Part shown: one piece after another, positions 1,141 through 14,101 of the stretch
How the letters are laid out: the number at the start of each line of letters is the position of its first letter
How positions within the stretch are numbered: position 1 is the first letter of the stretch
Assembly: GCA_026397455.1 (NCBI GenBank)
Contig: JAPLUX010000168.1
Coordinates: 1 to 14,101 of the forward strand
Length of the DNA stretch: 14,101 bases
Direction of reading: 5' to 3'
DNA from: Candidatus Aenigmatarchaeota archaeon
Lineage (GTDB): Archaea > Aenigmatarchaeota > Aenigmatarchaeia > CG10238-14
Program-made: the position numbers and the translations under genes
The notes under the pieces: generated by a model
Database searches by the model: none
What the model saw: only the letters and a program-made list of their open reading frames with translations
Told to the model about the DNA's origin: nothing

Positions 1141-2403
1141 CTATGTTTTTTCTGTAAGAGCTTTTTTCAATAAATTTTTTTTCAATATATAATCTTCTAT
1201 GAGCTTATCTGGGTCTTCTCCTGTCCCTTCAAAAGCCTGTGCAATTACCTTTCTTAGCGTTTTAAACTTATTTTCTATCGTAATGCGGTTGAATTTAAGT
1301 TTTGAGTATTCCATTCTGATTTGTTCTATTTTTGAACGATCAAAGTAGTTATCCTGACTTCCATGGAGAACATGACCCATCAGAAACTCCTGAATCTTTG
1401 AATCAAGAGTGTATCCATCAAATGTTTCGCTGTGTGTCACTGTTTCATAGGATTTTCTAAGACACTTTGGTGTAATATTTTCCCATTTATTTATTCCAGC
1501 AAGTTTTGCTGATTCTTTAATAAGTATTTGAATTTGGCGTTGTGTTAAAAATTTGCTTTTTCTGTTTTCTTTAACTATCTGATTGTAGTCAGATGCAAAA
1601 AGTGGATCATTATCCATGATTAGCCCGTATTTTTTCGTTCTTCCCTGCAAATAGAGACGTATAGCTTCTGTTGCCTCGTCACAGATAAACGTATAATATG
1701 GAAGAGAGTTTTTACAAGCATCAGAATTAATGTTTTTCATTTCCGGATATATTGATATTTTTAAATTAGCAATTCCTTTGAGTAAATCTTCTTTGATATC
1801 TTTGTAGGTTAGTGCTGCAAGCGTGGATGTTCTTATTCCTGAGCTATATAATGTAAGAACTATCGCTTTGTTTCTAAGTGAGCAAGCACAATCTGCCATT
1901 TGATATATTTCGTGTTTTTGCGGTATTGTTTCATTATTTTTTCTGTATCTTGTAGGAACATGGTAACCTTCTATCTGAAGAGCATTCAGACCTTTGAACC
2001 CATTTGCCTCGTAGAAAGTTTTCAATGCTGCAAGAGCATTATTTGCAGTTCTTTTACTGAAATTAGATGTGTTATATCTATCCGTGTATTTCTGGATGAG
2101 AGATTCTGTGTTTTCTTTGGGTAATTTAATTATTTCTTCTGGTTTCATTTTCGCATAAATGCAGAAAGACATAATGCGTTGTAGATAGTTTCTTCTTGTA
2201 GCTAAACTACCGCTTTTTCTTTTCAGATGCAATAATAAATTGTTCACGCTATTGTATTCACTTGTCCAGCCATCATCTGATACTCTTAAAAATTCGCTAA
2301 TTTTTACCGATATATTAATAGTGGTGAATGGTTTTTTAATTGGTTCATTTTGCATTGGTAAATTCTGGAAATTATTTGGTATGATTGTAAATTCAGGCTT
2401 CAT
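1141..2403 (-). CDS. Tyrosine recombinase/integrase (XerC/D- or SSV-like), complete
   Basis: This is a 420-residue site-specific recombinase. An N-terminal SAM-like core-binding domain (about 50-135) precedes the catalytic domain (about 160-375). Visible catalytic residues are Arg191 in SGIRTST, Lys223 in EMK (probable), Lys313 and Arg316 in TPKCLRK, His344 in LMGH and the nucleophile Tyr353 in DNYF. Lys replaces the usual box II His, as in SSV-type archaeal integrases. The ATG overlaps the stop of the LAGLIDADG gene as ATGA (2400-2403), so it is translated as the last gene of a three-gene operon. It ends 7 bases from the end of a related, frameshifted integrase on the plus strand. The role (excision/integration of an element, or dimer resolution) is not shown by the sequence; no att repeat was identified. 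Confidence 0.92.
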   Translation of the reverse strand: MKPEFTIIPNNFQNLPMQNEPIKKPFTTINISVKISEFLRVSDDGWTSEYNSVNNLLLHLKRKSGSLATRRNYLQRIMSFCIYAKMKPEEIIKLPKENTESLIQKYTDRYNTSNFSKRTANNALAALKTFYEANGFKGLNALQIEGYHVPTRYRKNNETIPQKHEIYQMADCACSLRNKAIVLTLYSSGIRTSTLAALTYKDIKEDLLKGIANLKISIYPEMKNINSDACKNSLPYYTFICDEATEAIRLYLQGRTKKYGLIMDNDPLFASDYNQIVKENRKSKFLTQRQIQILIKESAKLAGINKWENITPKCLRKSYETVTHSETFDGYTLDSKIQEFLMGHVLHGSQDNYFDRSKIEQIRMEYSKLKFNRITIENKFKTLRKVIAQAFEGTGEDPDKLIEDYILKKNLLKKALTEKT

Positions 2404-4624: not shown

Positions 4625-4677
4625 GGTGTAGTTTTTATCAATACTTTCAATGATCTTTTGAAAACGTTCTTATGGGC

Positions 4678-4687
4678 AAAATATATT
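4678..4687 (+). promoter_or_regulatory. Probable TATA box for the BglII-type R-M genes
   Basis: AAAATATATT is preceded by G-rich GGGC. Transcription starting about 26 bases downstream would fall near 4708, only a few bases before the in-frame ATGs at 4715 and 4721. This favours a leaderless or near-leaderless methyltransferase message starting there rather than at the upstream TTG (4658). Confidence 0.45.
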
Positions 4688-4699
4688 CTACTATCTGCA

Positions 4700-5665
4700 A
4701 TGATGTCAACAAAAATGCAAATGCTAAAAATCAATAATGAATTTTCGGAACAAAATAATATAATACTTCATCACGGGGATTCTTATGAATTTTTAAAAAC
4801 TATTCCTATAAAGACTGTTAAACTGATTATAAGTTCTCCCCCGTATAATGTTGGTAAAATCTATGAAAAAAGAGTTAAAATCGAGGATTACTTGAAAGAA
4901 CAAGAGAGAGTTATTGGGGAGCTTGTTCGTATTTTAAAAGACGATGGAAGTATTTGTTGGGAAGTAGGTAATTTTGTAGATAAATCAGAGGTTTATCCTC
5001 TTGATATTTTTTACTATGATATTTTTAAAAAACATCATCTGAAACTACGAAATAGAATAATATGGCATTTTGGACATGGGTTACACGCATCTAAACGTTT
5101 TTCTGGCAGATATGAAACTATTTTGTGGTTCACCAAAACAGATAATTATACCTTCAATTTAGATAGTGTGAGAGTCCCTTCAAAATATCCTGGGAAAACA
5201 TATTATAAGGGTCCGAAAAGAGGACAGCCTTCAGGAAATCCTAATGGTAAAAATCCCTCGGATATTTGGGAAATTGTCTGTAATGATTGGGAAAATGAAA
5301 TATGGGATATTCCAAACGTTAAATCTAACCATCCTGAAAAAACGATTCATCCCTGTCAATTCCCTATAGAACTTGTTGAACGATGCGTTCTTGCATTAAC
5401 AAATGAAAATGATTGGGTTCTTGATCCTTATTCCGGTGTTGGTAGTGCCTTAATTGCAGGATTGAAACATAACAGAAGAGTAATTGGCGTCGATAAAGAG
5501 TCTAAATATATAGACATTACAGAAGAAAGAATAAGAAAGTTGTATAGTGGTAAATTAAAAATCAGACCGCTTGGTCAACCTGTTTATCAACCTACAGGAA
5601 AAGAAAAAGTATCTCAGATACCATCAGAATGGAAAGATGAAAATAAACAAAGGAGATTATTATGA
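4700..5665 (+). CDS. Type II DNA methyltransferase, class beta, SPPY (probable N4-cytosine)
   Basis: The enzyme transfers a methyl group from S-adenosylmethionine to DNA. Motif IV (SSPPYNVGK) comes before motif I (DPYSGVGSA), with the target-recognition region between, which is the class beta order. HPCQFPIELVERC is motif X. SPPY is usual for N4-cytosine methylases, while N6-adenine enzymes more often have DPPY or NPPY. Several in-frame starts exist: TTG 4658 and ATG at 4700, 4703, 4715 and 4721. The conserved fold begins after 4740, and a TATA box at 4678-4687 favours 4715 or 4721. It overlaps the next gene by ATGA. The partner is BglII-like and, as I recall, M.BglII is an N4-cytosine enzyme, which supports the call. 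Expected role: protecting the host from the neighbouring endonuclease. Confidence 0.9.
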   Translation: MMSTKMQMLKINNEFSEQNNIILHHGDSYEFLKTIPIKTVKLIISSPPYNVGKIYEKRVKIEDYLKEQERVIGELVRILKDDGSICWEVGNFVDKSEVYPLDIFYYDIFKKHHLKLRNRIIWHFGHGLHASKRFSGRYETILWFTKTDNYTFNLDSVRVPSKYPGKTYYKGPKRGQPSGNPNGKNPSDIWEIVCNDWENEIWDIPNVKSNHPEKTIHPCQFPIELVERCVLALTNENDWVLDPYSGVGSALIAGLKHNRRVIGVDKESKYIDITEERIRKLYSGKLKIRPLGQPVYQPTGKEKVSQIPSEWKDENKQRRLL

Positions 5666-6237
5666 TAGTAGCTGGTAAATATTCTTTTAATCATGGAGAA
5701 GAAATAATTGAACAAGCCTATCCGGAGCTTCTCAAAGAGATACAAGAAGTAATTAAAAACATTGATGCTTCAAAACATATCAATAAAGAAAGCAAAGAAA
5801 AAACGATGCCAGGTCAGATGCTTTATAGTCCTGTATCGTTAAACAATGCGTTTAAAAACGAGTTTAAAAAATATGGGTGGGGGTGCAAACGTATTAAATG
5901 CGATTACCCCACCCAATATTATACAGGGGGATATGCTCCAAAAGGGACAACAAGAGGTGCTTTTAGAGAGATGGATTTCATAAAAGAAAAACTTGGAGTC
6001 GAGGTTCAATTCGGAAAGTATGCTTTTATGGTTTACAACGTAGCAGCAAAAATGACAATCTTTCATAACTTAGGATTCATTGACATGGGTGTTGAGATAG
6101 TCCCGATGAAACAGTTCGCAAATAATATGTCCACAGGTGTTTCTTATTTCGAGCAATTTGTATGGGATCTCGAACATAGGGGAGTATCAAATATCGATAT
6201 ACCCGTTCTTATATATGGTATTGATAAATCGTATTGA
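5662..6237 (+). CDS. Type II restriction endonuclease, BglII family
   Basis: A 191-residue endonuclease expected to cut unmethylated DNA at a GATC-centred site. BglII uses Asp84, Glu93 and Gln95, an unusual E-x-Q version of the PD-(D/E)XK site. Here REMDFIKEKLGVEVQFGK holds an Asp, eight residues, Glu, one residue, Gln: the same spacing. The surrounding text (REMDF before it, AFMVYNVAAKM and NLGFIDMGVEIVP after it) fits the family, and the length is close to that of the BglII/BstYI enzymes. The start ATG at 5662 overlaps the methyltransferase stop (ATGA), with GGAG at 5652-5655, so methylase is translated first. The exact site (AGATCT, RGATCY or GATC) cannot be read from the protein. Confidence 0.88.
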   Translation: MIVAGKYSFNHGEEIIEQAYPELLKEIQEVIKNIDASKHINKESKEKTMPGQMLYSPVSLNNAFKNEFKKYGWGCKRIKCDYPTQYYTGGYAPKGTTRGAFREMDFIKEKLGVEVQFGKYAFMVYNVAAKMTIFHNLGFIDMGVEIVPMKQFANNMSTGVSYFEQFVWDLEHRGVSNIDIPVLIYGIDKSY

Positions 6238-8070: not shown

Positions 8071-8271
8071 ATGCCAGATGAATTACATATACTGCCAGAA
8101 CAGGGAGAGATAGAAGTGGGGAAAATCAAAACATCTATCAACATAGATGAAGACACATGGAATGATTTTAGAATTTTAGTTTTACAAAAAGAAGGTGGTC
8201 GTAAGCTTACTGATGTTATTGAAACATTGATTAAACAGTATATCAAGAAAAATGGGGGGATGCACAAATGA
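8071..8271 (+). CDS. Ribbon-helix-helix (CopG/Arc-type) regulator
   Basis: A 66-residue protein. After a 16-residue acidic N-terminal arm, GKIKTSINIDEDTWNDFRI gives the DNA-contacting beta strand (about 18-25) and helix 1. GGRKLTDVIETLIKQYIKKN is the turn and helix 2 of the ribbon-helix-helix fold. Such dimers bind short palindromic half-sites. The ATG at 8071 follows AAGG at 8060-8063 and a cluster of CGGTA half-sites. It overlaps the restriction-modification gene by ATGA. It is placed where controller proteins sit in restriction-modification operons, so timing the nuclease-methylase after entry into a new cell is a reasonable inference. An antitoxin role is the alternative. Confidence 0.85.
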   Translation: MPDELHILPEQGEIEVGKIKTSINIDEDTWNDFRILVLQKEGGRKLTDVIETLIKQYIKKNGGMHK

Positions 8272-10967
8272 GTGAGGAGTTAATTCAAAAGGGATTAACA
8301 AAAAAAGGCTTAACAATTGGTAATTATGAATTTTATAATATCGGCAATACTACTATTAATCAATTAAAAAAATACAAGGTCATACCGAATAAACAGTATA
8401 AAGGATATGAAAAAAACAAACCAGATGCTTTGTTAATAGATCGCAGAAATAAAAATAATATTAAAATTCTTTTAGTGGTTGAATACAAAGATACTGGAAA
8501 ATTCAAGTCACGTAAGGATAAAAAGGGGACTATTGAACAATGTAATACTCTTTGTCAGATTTTACAAGCAGATATCGGAATAGCAACCGATAATTCATCT
8601 TTTATATGGTTCAATCCAAAACAACCAAATAAAAAAAATGAATATGTTGATTCTGCGGATAAAAAAAGAAGCTACACAATCATTCAAGATAAAGACACCA
8701 ATGATTTTATCGAGAAATTTATAATAGACCAGACTAAAGACGAAATAGAAACCAATAAGTTAAACTCACAGACACGAATTAGTTTAGAGCATCTCGAATT
8801 AGTAAGGAAAAACATATCAGTAAATAATTCTAAAATCACTAAAGAAAAAACCATCGACCCCACTCGTTTAGCTAAACAAATATGGCAAGATGTATGGTCT
8901 GTAAGCGGAGCAACACCAGAAAAATGTTTATACACTTTTGTAGAATTATTTATATTCAAATATCTCAGTGATTTGGATATACTGGATGAAGATGATAAAG
9001 GCAACAAAATAAATTTCAGAGACATCTATAAATTAACACCTGAAAAAGCATTTAAGAATTATTCCAGCAATGCAAGAGAACATCTAAAAATAATGTTCCC
9101 AGTAAATCCCTTAGACAATACGACAATTATTAATGGAACGGTATTGAATCCTGATGTCCCCGAGCATAGTAATGTTTTCTATAAAATACTGAAAAAATTT
9201 AATGATTTCGGGAAATTAGAGAACATCGACCCAAAATTCAAATCAAAGGTTTTTGAAGAGTTCATGAAAGAAAGTATCAGTAAGAAAAACTGGGGTCGAT
9301 ATTTCACACCGAGAAATATTGTCGATGCTATGATTGAGATATCTGATATAGACAAACTTGCTAAAGAATCCATTATCTGTGACCCCGCTTGCGGAGTTGG
9401 GGGCTTTATTTTAGAGCCGATGAAAGTAAAAGACGATGGAGTAAAATTTTATTATAGAATTGAAGGAGATAAAATAAAATCAAGATATGATTTCTATGGT
9501 TTTGATAAGGGATTCGAAAAAGAAGAACAACTGACAATAATTTTAGCAAAAGCAAATATGCTTATTTTCTTATCTGACCTTCTTAAGAAGAACCCAACAA
9601 TGGCTTTGAGTTTTTCAGAGCTATTTAATAAAACATTCACATTATTGAGCAAAACAATTCTGGGAACTCTAAATATCACTGAATCAGATAAATATGACCT
9701 TATATTAACAAATCCACCTTACGTTACAAGTGGTAGTAGCAACTATAAGGAAGCAATAAAAAGAGATTCAAGACTCAGTGATTTTTATAAGAAAAATGCG
9801 ATGGGCGTAGAAGGATTATTTTTAGAATGGATAATTCGTAGTTTAAAACCATCACGAAAAGCATTTGTTATTATTCCCGACGGTTTACTTAATAGAACGC
9901 ACGAAAAAGAAATTAGACAATTTATTTTGGATGAATGTATTTTAGATGGAATTATTTCATTACCGATTAATGCTTTCTATACCACTCCTAAAAAAACATA
10001 TATCCTTTGCATCACAAAAAAATCTGGAGAAAATGAAATTGAACGGAAAAAAATCAAACAAACGGAACCTGTTTTTACTTACTTGGTTAGCAATATTGGA
10101 GAAACATTGGATGTTAAACGATTCTCAATTCCTGATGAAAATGATTTAATCGAAGCTGTTAGTTTATTCAACCAGTTCAAAGGGGCAAAAACATCTTTTA
10201 AAACAAAGTCATTGAGATGCAAAATACAACCCATTGAAAAGTTTACTAAAGATATTAATAAACATTGGTCGGTTGATCGATGGTGGAAAAGAAAAGAAAA
10301 AATAAAACTCGGCATCGAAAGCGAAGATGTCGTTATGGAATTGCATGAGTTCCAGGATAAAATGAGAGATGCAACAAAAAAGATAAAAGAAGCGACAAAA
10401 AATTTAGACCAACTAAAAGGGAAACTTGTAAAACCAGGGCTTGAAAAGAGAATAGTCTTGAGTAATACAGATTATTTTGAGACATTCATTGGTAAACGAG
10501 TTTTAAAGGAAGATGTATTTCGTTCAAGCGGAAAAATCCCTGTATATAGTGCAAATGTTTTTGAGGAATTTGGTTATTTAGATAAATCAAATATCTCAAA
10601 TTTTGACCATGATTATGTTCTATGGGGTATTGATGGGGAATTTGAGTTTAACGTAATGAAAAAAGGAACAAAATTTGCTACCACAGACCATTGCGGTGTA
10701 ATTAAAATCCTCGATGAAAATATTGTTCCAGAATATCTTTTATATCAGTTAGAATTAGAAAGACATATATTAGGCTATGATAGAACATTAAGACCCTCCT
10801 TAAAAAACATGAATAATGTTGAAGTAAAATTTCCGATTAATCGCAATGGCAAAATAAATAAGAAAATCCAAGAAAAAATTATAAAAAAATATATCCTCCT
10901 AAAAGAAATTAAAAATAATCTACAAAATGAAATTGACGATTTGCTTGATATAACAGTTGAATTTTAA
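8268..10967 (+). CDS. Single-chain restriction-modification enzyme (type IIG-like: nuclease-methylase-target recognition)
   Basis: An 899-residue fusion. Residues about 40-130 form an HsdR_N-like PD-(D/E)XK nuclease: KPDALL with Asp53, then VEYK with Glu72 and Lys74. Residues about 190-640 are an HsdM-type N6-adenine methylase with RYFTPR (about 344-349), motif I DPACGVGGF (372-380) and motif IV NPPY (482-485). A helical spacer (about 690-725) leads to one HsdS-like target-recognition half (730-899), including KIPVYSAN, DYVLWGIDGEF and a closing amphipathic helix. There is no helicase motor, so it is type IIG/IIB-like rather than type I, and should both methylate and cut near its site. With one target domain it may act as a dimer on a split palindromic site or on an asymmetric site. 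The ATG overlaps the RHH stop; GGGGGA at 8255-8260 is the SD. Confidence 0.9.
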   Translation: MSEELIQKGLTKKGLTIGNYEFYNIGNTTINQLKKYKVIPNKQYKGYEKNKPDALLIDRRNKNNIKILLVVEYKDTGKFKSRKDKKGTIEQCNTLCQILQADIGIATDNSSFIWFNPKQPNKKNEYVDSADKKRSYTIIQDKDTNDFIEKFIIDQTKDEIETNKLNSQTRISLEHLELVRKNISVNNSKITKEKTIDPTRLAKQIWQDVWSVSGATPEKCLYTFVELFIFKYLSDLDILDEDDKGNKINFRDIYKLTPEKAFKNYSSNAREHLKIMFPVNPLDNTTIINGTVLNPDVPEHSNVFYKILKKFNDFGKLENIDPKFKSKVFEEFMKESISKKNWGRYFTPRNIVDAMIEISDIDKLAKESIICDPACGVGGFILEPMKVKDDGVKFYYRIEGDKIKSRYDFYGFDKGFEKEEQLTIILAKANMLIFLSDLLKKNPTMALSFSELFNKTFTLLSKTILGTLNITESDKYDLILTNPPYVTSGSSNYKEAIKRDSRLSDFYKKNAMGVEGLFLEWIIRSLKPSRKAFVIIPDGLLNRTHEKEIRQFILDECILDGIISLPINAFYTTPKKTYILCITKKSGENEIERKKIKQTEPVFTYLVSNIGETLDVKRFSIPDENDLIEAVSLFNQFKGAKTSFKTKSLRCKIQPIEKFTKDINKHWSVDRWWKRKEKIKLGIESEDVVMELHEFQDKMRDATKKIKEATKNLDQLKGKLVKPGLEKRIVLSNTDYFETFIGKRVLKEDVFRSSGKIPVYSANVFEEFGYLDKSNISNFDHDYVLWGIDGEFEFNVMKKGTKFATTDHCGVIKILDENIVPEYLLYQLELERHILGYDRTLRPSLKNMNNVEVKFPINRNGKINKKIQEKIIKKYILLKEIKNNLQNEIDDLLDITVEF

Positions 10968-12291: not shown

Positions 12292-12744
12292 ATGAAGGAT
12301 ATTAAAATTTTCTTTGGGGAACCAAAGGAACTGGTTCAACATAATATCGAATCTTTAAATGGAATTACTGGACTATATTTCATTTTTCTTAAGACAATGA
12401 AAGTTCAATATCCATTCAATAATTCCAGATTAATTTATATCGGTATGAGCGAAAAAAGGACGAATAGCATTGGGAATAGATTAACCAGTCATTATAATGG
12501 AAAATCTGGAAATGTTGGATTAGTAAACTATAGGAAAGTCGATAAATTATTTTTTACTCACATCAATTTTGAAATGATGAAAGAAATTTGGCAACCGAGC
12601 ATTGAAGATTTAGAGAGCTATTTTATTCTTGACTTTGTAGAAAAATATGGGGTATACCCTATATGCAACAATAAAACAGGTTTCGAAGTTTTAAATAGAG
12701 ACATAGGGATTAAACTTGTTATCGATTGGCAATATTTTGAATGA
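12292..12744 (+). CDS. GIY-YIG nuclease
   Basis: A 150-residue single-domain GIY-YIG endonuclease. The family motifs are present in order: GLY (27-29, the GIY), YIG (49-51), Arg63 in NRL, His67 in SHY, metal-binding Glu108 in DLESYFI and Asn126 in CNN. All key catalytic positions seem intact. No extra DNA-binding domain is attached, so specificity must come from partners. It is first in an operon with a 60-residue protein and an SMC-like ATPase, on the opposite strand from a tail-anchored protein. ATG 12292 lacks a strong SD; TTG or GTG alternatives are not evident. The family ranges from homing nucleases and UvrC to restriction enzymes; the operon points to defence (inference). Confidence 0.85.
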   Translation: MKDIKIFFGEPKELVQHNIESLNGITGLYFIFLKTMKVQYPFNNSRLIYIGMSEKRTNSIGNRLTSHYNGKSGNVGLVNYRKVDKLFFTHINFEMMKEIWQPSIEDLESYFILDFVEKYGVYPICNNKTGFEVLNRDIGIKLVIDWQYFE

Positions 12745-12749
12745 GGAGG
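12743..12749 (+). promoter_or_regulatory. Strong ribosome binding site overlapping the GIY-YIG stop codon
   Basis: GAGGAGG lies eight bases before ATG 12758 and overlaps the TGA (12742-12744) of the upstream gene. It fixes the start of the small middle gene at 12758, against an ATG at 12716 in the same frame, and couples the two genes. Confidence 0.75.
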
Positions 12750-12757
12750 AAAAAGAG

Positions 12758-12940
12758 ATGGCTATAGAAATTAAAAGCGGAGAAGAACTTTTGAATGAAT
12801 TTTTCGAGGAACTGAAAGTTATCCCTGATGTCGATAAAGATGTCATAGATATCTTATATGGACTTTATCATCAAGACAAACTCTCACGTAAAAATATAAC
12901 GAATGCCTTATCAAAAAGTAGGGGGGAAACTGCTAAATGA
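12758..12940 (+). CDS. Small acidic helical protein between nuclease and ATPase
   Basis: A 60-residue protein that I do not recognise. It is acidic and helical in its first half (SGEELLNEFFEELKVIPDVD) and basic at the end (LSRKNITNALSKSRGETAK), with a pattern compatible with a small helical bundle. The start is fixed by a strong SD at 12743-12749. The stop overlaps the ATPase start as ATGA, and the upstream nuclease ends 13 bases before its ATG, so the three genes are very tightly coupled. Likely roles are an adaptor between the GIY-YIG nuclease and the ATPase, or a regulatory subunit of the ATPase; both are inference from position. Confidence 0.7.
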   Translation: MAIEIKSGEELLNEFFEELKVIPDVDKDVIDILYGLYHQDKLSRKNITNALSKSRGETAK

Positions 12941-14101
12941 CAAGAATTAAAAAATTATCTATGAAAGGAGTTCGAGGAGTTAAAACAGATTTATCATTGA
13001 TGTTAGATGGCAATTCTGTCCTGCTCTATGGTGATAACGGATCAGGAAAAAGTAGTATAACTGATGCTATCGAATGGTTTTATTACGATAAAATTGAACA
13101 TTTATCATCTGAGGAAATAGGACGAAGTTGCTTGGACGCCATCAGAAATACATTTCTCGGAAATGAAGAGAATAGCAATGTTTCGTTTGAATTTACCGAT
13201 AGCGTTCTTAATGCAAACAAAGATATTTATTTAAAACGAGGAAAACTAATCTGTAGTTGTTCTAATGAATGCAACGAATTTAATGACTTCTTGGAGTCAT
13301 CTAAAAAGGAGCGTTTGATTTTACGCTATAAAGATTTACTAAACTTTGTTATCGCTACTAAGAAAGAGCGGTTAGACGAATTTTCGAACATCATTGGATT
13401 TTCGAAAGTTACGGAAATAAGAGGCTTGTTTAAGACGATTGTCAATGATTTAAATACAGAGATGGATATAAAAAATTTTGATAACCAAAGAAATATCCAG
13501 CAGAAAGACATTATAGCAAAACTCGGGCGTAATGTCACGTCAGATGGACAATTTATTGAATCTATAAATGAATTAATAAAACCGTTGAATCTCGGCAAGA
13601 CAATTGGAAAATTGGATGAAATCGACACTTTATTAGAATCGATAACAAAACCAGAAGACGAAAAGATAATCGAGATACAAGCCTTCTACAAGAGCGTAAG
13701 CGATGAGATTTCTAATTTCCCAAATCTCCTCAACAAGATAGATGGAACATATAAGATTTATTATGAAAAATTTCAAAAAATTGTTACTGACGCCGAAAAA
13801 ATCAACAAAATCATGCTGGAAACACTATTATCAGAAGGCATTACAGTTTTGAGGGGAAAAATAATTATTGAGGACAATTGTCCTCTTTGTTTACAACCAA
13901 AAAATAGAGTAGAGTTACTCAGAGAATTAGAATCCAGAATTACTGAACTGAGTAAAGTAAAAAAAGAAAAAATGGAACTCAATACATTCAAAGAAACATT
14001 AGAGAAAATCATAGATAAACCCAACAACATAATCAATGGTTTTTTATCACATAAGAATATGAAAGGAGAGGAAAATAGAGAATTAAAGTTGAAACTTCAA
14101 C
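12937..14101 (+). CDS. SMC/Rad50-like ABC ATPase with CPxC hook motif, cut by right edge
   Basis: 388 residues are visible and the frame runs off the window. The N-terminus MTRIKKLSMKGVRG is the typical first strand of RecF/SMC/Rad50-type ATPases. Walker A is GDNGSGKSS (32-40), followed by DAIEWFYY. Long helical, charged segments follow (about 230-310), then CPLC (315-318) within NCPLCLQPKNRVELLREL, and another coiled segment (about 325-388). A CPxC in this position resembles the hook or finger of PrrC/RloC and AAA_13-type defence ATPases and of Rad50. Walker B and the signature motif would lie beyond the edge. It overlaps the 60-residue gene as ATGA. The likely role is a DNA- or end-sensing motor that controls the GIY-YIG nuclease (inference). 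A C-terminal effector domain cannot be excluded. Confidence 0.85.
   Translation, partial: MTRIKKLSMKGVRGVKTDLSLMLDGNSVLLYGDNGSGKSSITDAIEWFYYDKIEHLSSEEIGRSCLDAIRNTFLGNEENSNVSFEFTDSVLNANKDIYLKRGKLICSCSNECNEFNDFLESSKKERLILRYKDLLNFVIATKKERLDEFSNIIGFSKVTEIRGLFKTIVNDLNTEMDIKNFDNQRNIQQKDIIAKLGRNVTSDGQFIESINELIKPLNLGKTIGKLDEIDTLLESITKPEDEKIIEIQAFYKSVSDEISNFPNLLNKIDGTYKIYYEKFQKIVTDAEKINKIMLETLLSEGITVLRGKIIIEDNCPLCLQPKNRVELLRELESRITELSKVKKEKMELNTFKETLEKIIDKPNNIINGFLSHKNMKGEENRELKLKLQ

Follow-up and report, generated by a model that had tools for sequence, protein, structure and literature searches.

What does a nuclease that consists of a catalytic domain only do beside a 60-residue protein and an ABC ATPase? 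The question is raised by three plus-strand genes at the right end of contig JAPLUX010000168.1 from a Candidatus Aenigmatarchaeota archaeon, a stretch of 14,101 bases analysed at its full length (the window; contig C12 of genome G000 in our collection). In this study, we confirm that the trio of a GIY-YIG protein, a small protein and a zinc-hook ATPase is a real conserved system. With a rough probability of 55% we read it as a three-gene anti-invader system, in which a DNA-sensing Rad50/RloC-like ATPase runs a GIY-YIG deoxyribonuclease (DNase), usually with a second, tRNA-cleaving arm (tRNase).

The gene layout given by the first-pass annotation was confirmed from the sequence (Table 1). The stop codon TGA of the nuclease gene (12742-12744) shares one base with the Shine-Dalgarno-like AGGAGG, a gap of 13 bases (12745-12757) separates it from the ATG of the small gene at 12758, and small gene and ATPase gene overlap as ATGA (12937-12940). 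Since the window is the whole contig, the ATPase gene is cut by the end of the assembly and no extension is possible within the contig.

Table 1. Features of the trio locus and its surroundings. Coordinates are those of the window unless contig C185 of the same genome (locus L171) is named.
Feature	Position	Strand	Description and basis
N4/N6 methylase gene	4658-5665	+	Pfam N6_N4_Mtase 4.9e-52
BglII-like restriction enzyme gene, overlapping the methylase gene	5662-6237	+	Pfam Endonuc-BglII 2e-20
Fused N6-adenine methylase/specificity protein (type I/IIG-like restriction-modification)	8268-10967	+	899 residues; Pfam N6_Mtase 6e-32
GIY-YIG nuclease gene	12292-12744	+	150 residues, catalytic domain only
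GLY codons	12370-12378	+	nuclease motif
YIG codons	12436-12444	+	nuclease motif
Arg63 codon	12478-12480	+	nuclease motif
His67 codon	12490-12492	+	nuclease motif
Glu105 codon	12604-12606	+	nuclease motif
Glu108 codon	12613-12615	+	nuclease motif
Asn126/Asn127 codons	12667-12672	+	nuclease motif
Shine-Dalgarno-like AGGAGG	12744-12749	+	8 bases upstream of the small-gene start; sequence
Small gene	12758-12940	+	60-residue three-helix protein; alignment, AlphaFold2 model, codon-position bias
Zinc-hook ABC ATPase gene, first 388 codons	12937-14101	+	open at the edge; Walker A 13030-13056, CPLC hook 13879-13890
Probable ATPase remainder	C185 1-1236 (L171)		411 residues; LSESH, Walker B, C-terminal domain, zinc-ribbon-like end
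ApeA-type HEPN gene after the ATPase tail	C185 (L171 2862-4262)		PF18862 1e-52, PF18739 5e-24

Relatives of the ATPase were collected in two ways. A protein search with the 388-residue piece, in which proteins longer than about 679 residues were not returnable, gave 80 hits (79 excluding the window's own), and a scan of genome contigs with an ATPase alignment gave 144 confirmed places, the best 80 of which were taken. The first 38 of these loci (L004-L041, 35-45% identity) are treated as the family, the remaining 42 as more distant ABC ATPases. By script, by eye and by profile, a gene of 60-75 residues lies immediately upstream of the ATPase gene in all 38 family loci and a GIY-YIG gene lies before it in 37. 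The small gene, which the first-pass annotation had found the unfamiliar part, is a constant member. The exception, L031, lies at a contig end and has no GIY-YIG gene; its whole genome is without a profile match. With this gene order seen in 37 of 38 loci, seven of which are treated as near-copies, the association goes far beyond chance. At E<0.05 the trio profiles found neither a GIY-YIG nor a small-protein relative in the 42 distant-ATPase loci or in 80 viral loci; one distant-ATPase locus (L043) gave a single small-protein match weaker than this threshold.

The three components also appear to share a history. In a tree of 52 ATPases with its root drawn at the midpoint, from which seven of the 38 loci were left out as near-identical, all 31 trio ATPases fall on one side of a branch with support of 100/100, and they span ten named bacterial phyla. 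Over 27 loci the pairwise distances correlate (Spearman 0.61 for GIY-YIG and ATPase, 0.44 for GIY-YIG and small protein, 0.54 for small protein and ATPase; Mantel p 0.001 each). Among 29 carrier genomes the GIY-YIG profile has a single match in 27, none in that of L031 and two in another, where the second match is weak (E 2e-9). Trio ATPases, many of them from metagenome-assembled genomes (MAGs), come from Bacteroidota, Planctomycetota, Pseudomonadota, Melainabacteria, Cloacimonadota, Thermodesulfobacteriota, Bacillota, Chloroflexota, Elusimicrobiota, Verrucomicrobiota, Aminicenantes and the genome of the window. Within such groups they are sporadic: the GIY-YIG profile matches none of 394 other Bacteroidota genomes, and the ATPase search gave no match in 155 further genomes from the phylum of the window, a pattern in keeping with a mobile accessory function. 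A plasmid copy in Aliiroseovarius crassostreae has its GIY-YIG gene in divergent orientation to small gene and ATPase gene with all three still adjoining, and the trio lies next to Mu-type/TniB/TniQ transposition genes.

Concerning the nuclease, Y29, Y49-I50-G51, R63, H67, E105, E108, N126 and N127, which we take to be the catalytic positions of the GIY-YIG fold, are invariant across 29 aligned rows that include the window, so the catalytic set had rightly been called intact. Among the best 120 of 1775 GIY-YIG homologues, GIY, YIG, R...H and the Glu motifs occur in every protein and YPICNN in 117; in a plasmid relative that is further removed, the motifs are retained with E108 and N126 but without E105 and N127. 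The 150-residue protein is modelled confidently as one domain, with structural matches to GIY-YIG enzymes over residues 4-132; its Pfam scores lie under the curated cut-offs. Motifs (GIY...YIG, Arg, Glu, Asn) and the beta-beta-alpha fold agree with the features of the superfamily. The first gene thus encodes a predicted GIY-YIG fold with its motif residues intact.

The ATPase had been reported with a Walker A motif and a CPxC insert, and both are borne out: G32, N34, G37-K38-S39-S40 and CPLC are invariant across 36 aligned ATPases. It had also been described as having, so far, no nuclease, which probably does not hold once the missing half is considered. With a full-length relative as query, the genome of the window yielded a second piece, 58% identical over 237 residues, at the very start of contig C185. 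Measured against the full-length relative L034, the window piece stops at residue 390 and the C185 match starts at 402, so that about 10 residues are missing between the contigs; the two pieces are probably one gene. The C185 piece carries the signature LSESH, the Walker B motif FFILDDVISSFD and a C-terminal domain that closes with a zinc-ribbon-like CxxC...CxC. Walker A and CPLC in the window together with LSESH and LDDVISSFD on C185 make up the RloC-type ABC motifs with a CX2C hook. With its ATPase motifs complete, the third gene encodes, as judged from sequence, a Rad50/RloC-type zinc-hook ABC ATPase. A Protein Data Bank (PDB) search with the long-form profile gave SMC and Rad50 chains exclusively at E<=0.001. 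As a side observation, a trio ATPase (L008:8001-10409) matches the NCBIfam model of ASRP (archaea-specific SMC-related protein) over residues 12-608 with 51 bits at a cut-off of 300, which may hint at the origin of the ATPase family.

RloC proteins are described as a group of 658-897 residues with a CX2C hook and the motif Arg-X3-Glu-X36-52-His, in which Ser often precedes His, linked to type I or III restriction-modification (R-M) in 8 of 72 cases (PMC2610378). The C-terminal domain on C185 has Arg-Met-Ser-Pro-Glu (RMSPE) followed after 37 residues by Ser-His, that is, the RloC spacing, and makes a probable nuclease domain. Long forms of about 810 residues, among them the window's ATPase when its two pieces are read as one gene, make up 32 of the 38 family loci (at least 795 residues). 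Counting 33 long forms (31 loci, C185 and the plasmid copy), the triad spacing is 36-52 in 30; L014, L021 and L039 have both motifs at spacings of 35, 35 and 31, and L007, outside the 33, has a spacing of 37. Among the best 120 of 466 long-form homologues, 807-823 residues in length, the spacing is 36-52 in 119 and CPxC is present in all. These observations make a ribonuclease (RNase) arm in the long-form ATPase likely.

Short forms are found as well. L004 (650 residues) and L005 (646 residues) retain both partner genes, the ATPase of L041 ends within the C-terminal domain, and those of L009, L037 and L038 run off their contigs. None of 35 short homologues of 640-680 residues has the triad motifs after Walker B, and a loose triad pattern matched in 2 of 42 short-form homologues above 600 residues; many of the short forms of 640-680 residues fall under the RloC size range. 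Since forms lacking the C-terminal domain keep their partners, the effector role would fall constantly to the GIY-YIG protein and only optionally to the C-terminal domain. The idea that sensor and effector are split between genes therefore stands in part: the trio is conserved and has a separate nuclease, but the long-form ATPase is probably a second effector itself.

The C-terminal domain may be older than the trio, as both of its motifs recur among the distant ATPases: in 7 of 42 (L047, L049, L059, L074, L075, L076, L080) N-x2-R-x3-E is followed near the C-terminus by N-x2-S-H at a spacing of 35-79, and these seven are possible further ABC-HEPN proteins. In AAA_13 open reading frames (ORFs) from other Bacteroidota genomes the two motifs occur in 14 of 20 and 11 of 20, respectively. 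Pfam AAA_13 is annotated for 23 of the best 120 homologues and scores E 0.19 for L036.

The small protein shows conservation of its own. K6, G8, F15-F16, D26, L36, T43 and N49 are common to at least 90% of 30 aligned members, the window having Ser at position 43. An AlphaFold2 model shows three helices (8-20, 27-38, 44-59) with a predicted local distance difference test (pLDDT) of 89.3 and a predicted TM-score (pTM) of 0.66. In nine non-independent pairs of close relatives, differences fall 51/27/132 on the three codon positions, with 101 synonymous and 73 non-synonymous codons; their concentration at third positions indicates that the gene is translated and under selection. No convincing match to the model was found in the PDB, and Pfam placed no family above cut-off among the members with scores shown; the coiled-coil family Osmo_CC weakly matches 7 of 30 (best E 7.8e-5). 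The failure of the first-pass annotation to match the set to a named system is shared by PADLOC, which names neither the nuclease nor the small protein of the window and does not convincingly name its 30 small-protein relatives: matches are scattered and weak, the best (NsnC, E 4.2e-4, in 1 of 30) being taken as chance.

Small genes also precede several related ATPases with other partners; as identified by eye, the gene ahead of them is either large and restriction-like or codes for a SNF2-type helicase. Such small ORFs beyond the trio have higher profile scores than viral control loci (p 8.5e-4), an excess that position alone does not give. Kinship of small proteins beyond the trio is a lead. 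Beside this stand two side observations. Plasmid CP092842.1 of Bradyrhizobium sp. 62B (L166 2046-6448) encodes a DUF262 protein, a 57-residue protein and a CPLC-hook ABC ATPase with a four-base overlap, which looks like the same design with a different enzyme. Archaeal pairs of small gene and ABC ATPase occur in L048, L054, L062 and L063 (Bathyarchaeota) and in L168 (a Natrinema plasmid), by eye with no obvious enzyme gene directly upstream.

How might such a machine work? By analogy with RloC, which is activated by linear DNA and whose nuclease stays on as long as the DNA end persists (PMC3874168), two ATPase subunits would join via the CPxC hook, and the dimer would sense abnormal DNA such as free ends or foreign-DNA intermediates. 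The three-helix small protein would tether the GIY-YIG nuclease to the ATPase, a job done within one chain by the Rad50-binding tail of Mre11. DNA and ATP would engage the heads, and the DNA held there would be cut by the GIY-YIG enzyme, which itself lacks a DNA-binding domain. The C-terminal domain would add an RloC-like RNase activity as a second arm, cutting tRNA and halting translation if DNA cutting fails; short ATPase forms would retain the DNA arm only. In its full form, with a DNA-end-sensing Rad50-like hook ATPase, a 60-residue tether, a GIY-YIG DNase and the ATPase's own C-terminal HEPN anticodon nuclease acting on DNA first and on translation second, this proposal is tentative. It includes, at the same tentative level for the whole, the clause that one core of small tether and hook ATPase serves wider systems with the enzyme swapped for a DUF262 protein, a SNF2-type helicase or a restriction-like gene product.

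A defence role is supported by the R-M genes in the window, by the ApeA-type HEPN gene on C185 and by type III R-M neighbours. Two comparisons weigh against kinship with RloC: hhalign of the trio and RloC-type C-terminal domains gave only 6%, and the trio ATPase profile run on 30 AAA_13 loci gave six matches at E<=1, five of them weak. As full-length similarity to RloC is weak, we speak of an RloC-like ATPase.

Among the systems that the first-pass annotation had named, RloC proved the best guide, while the hallmarks of Menshen, Gabija, Septu and Wadjet were not found in the scanned trio proteins. With RloC the trio shares a coiled-coil-split ABC ATPase of about 800 residues, the CX2C hook, the C-proximal Arg-X3-Glu-X36-52-(Ser)His and sometimes the R-M linkage. 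In the descriptions available in PMC2610378 and PMC3874168, however, RloC is a single gene, whereas the trio adds a GIY-YIG protein (37/38) and a 60-residue protein (38/38), and its ATPase has a zinc-ribbon-like end after the triad. In the 30 AAA_13 loci, taken with flanks of at most about 1.5 kb, the trio profiles picked up neither a GIY-YIG nor a small-protein relative. Menshen, described as a DUF262 gene with an OLD/TOPRIM nuclease (PMC10952713), was rejected, as the Pfam matches of the scanned trio proteins include no DUF262 or TOPRIM/OLD family. Gabija is represented only by weak GajA matches to the ATP-binding N terminus; the C185 part shows no TOPRIM, and none of the trio genes encodes a helicase. 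Matches of the window's ATPase piece to PtuA of Septu cover its N terminus only (best 3-71, E 8.8e-8), and the nuclease is GIY-YIG with no HNH among Pfam matches. For Wadjet there is one 26-residue JetC match (E 4.6e-4) and no JetA/B/D match in the trio. DndD/CxC systems resemble the trio in their ABC ATPase, their small operon partner (DndE or other) and their varied nucleases including GIY-YIG (URI), as outlined in PMC10853773; the trio hook is CPxC, not CxC, and no DndE model is among the small-protein matches shown. PD-T4-3 and other stand-alone GIY-YIG restriction enzymes are larger (9u75_A, 248 residues), whereas the trio enzyme is a catalytic domain only, linked to an ATPase. A term search of the main text of the archaeal defence survey PMC12988326 found no mention of GIY-YIG, RloC or Lamassu, and a description of the trio was not found in the literature searched, a search that did not include the main ABC-ATPase survey.

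One rival explanation, which partly overlaps with ours, places the trio in Lamassu/ABC-3C, the GIY-YIG protein being a new LmuA effector, the small protein a tiny LmuC and the ATPase LmuB. Gene order and three-part build agree with the effector, small middle gene and SMC-like sensor in one operon that PMC10586767 describes for Lamassu/ABC-3C/DdmABC, and all 9 full-length short-form ATPases scanned match the PADLOC LmuB model PDLC03859 along almost its entire length (73-99 bits). This match is unspecific, however, as LmuB profiles score equally strongly (best 62-156 bits) on nine ABC ATPases without the GIY-YIG/small pair, some of which could be true Lamassu, and the PDB search with the long-form profile led to SMC and Rad50 chains only. 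At E up to 1, the matches of the 30 small proteins include no LmuC model; no Pfam middle-component family is among 25 of their 32 weak matches, and the effector, modelled as one domain, lacks a C-terminal docking domain; GIY-YIG is absent from the effector list given in PMC10586767. We consider this membership unlikely. The R-M genes in the window would also agree with a guard in the manner of PrrC, in which a neighbouring R-M enzyme keeps the trio silent until a virus blocking R-M fires it. PrrC of the EcoprrI system is an ABC ATPase with an Arg/Glu/His RNase triad, held by a type I enzyme, but the hook insert is given as a feature that sets RloC apart, and a GIY-YIG partner is not mentioned in the accounts of PrrC in PMC2610378 and PMC3710099. 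In 18 hand-chosen genomes, which included those with an adjacency already noticed, five (L015, L026, L027, L030, L037) have their only match of one type III methylase model about 30 bases (by profile edges) ahead of the GIY-YIG gene; the other 13 have no adjacent match, L033 having a weak one 1.3 kb before the gene. As RloC activation is seen even in R-M deficient hosts (PMC3874168), silencing by R-M is distinctly improbable.

Another proposal changes only one part of our model and is compatible with the rest: the small protein would be an inhibitor (antitoxin) of the nuclease rather than a tether. Its gene lies between the nuclease gene and its partner, as known toxin-antitoxin layouts would suggest, yet its overlap with the ATPase gene persists in the copy with a flipped nuclease gene, and a small gene also precedes related ATPases without a GIY-YIG gene, even though the kinship of those small proteins is weak; we regard an inhibitor as quite doubtful. 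Finally, the trio could be a DNA-repair complex without an immune role, an analogue of SbcCD/Mre11-Rad50 with GIY-YIG replacing Mre11. It shares with these complexes a zinc-hook ATPase and a separate nuclease, and the repair nuclease UvrC has the same fold as the trio enzyme. The nuclease of Mre11-Rad50/SbcCD is of the Mre11 type, whereas that of the trio is GIY-YIG, and the trio has the extra small protein and the C-terminal domain. Its sporadic occurrence, its scatter over phyla and its position near R-M genes, and once near transposition genes, make a repair role very improbable. The anti-invader reading, with an RloC-like ATPase running a GIY-YIG DNase, is the one that we retain.

The surroundings of the trio are rich in R-M genes. 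The 899-residue methylase/specificity protein also matches the PADLOC models MTase_I (7.4e-38), REase_MTase_IIG (5.7e-23) and Specificity_I (2.8e-11), and the ApeA-type HEPN gene behind the ATPase tail likely serves defence too, as part of the same island. Neighbouring ORFs of family loci were scanned in two sets of 135 and 118, together 253 of 314; at most 4 and 6 of them, respectively, match type III methylase models, and 2 and 4 match type III restriction models (raw counts). In several loci another small gene directly precedes the GIY-YIG gene, which we take to be KTSC-like in L009 (2405-2632), L013 (7113-7340), L016 (6965-7192) and L041 (836-973) and presumably WYL-like in L006 and L032; these are possible accessory or regulatory genes. 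At the other end of the window, a tyrosine recombinase gene (1141-2403, minus strand, Pfam Phage_integrase) faces two plus-strand ORFs (2-640 and 642-1133) that look by eye like a split recombinase relative, possibly the edge of a mobile element. The MAG itself comprises 942,536 bases at 72% completeness. It encodes a TFIIB-like protein with two repeats, for which only the four archaea among 14 controls match, and no archaeal ribosomal protein L19e or L32e was found in it; the MAG is probably archaeal, and the contig may be mis-binned.

No PADLOC, Pfam or NCBIfam model names the scanned members as such a system, so that surveys built on these models would probably miss the trio, although the GIY-YIG family is sizeable with 1775 homologues in one protein search. 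If the family is a relative of RloC that nearly always has a GIY-YIG and a small partner, one sensor would run both a DNA-break-sensing tRNase and a DNase. The short forms would then serve as a natural experiment on the system without its tRNase arm, and the small protein would be a minimal candidate for the recruitment of swappable nucleases by hook ATPases.

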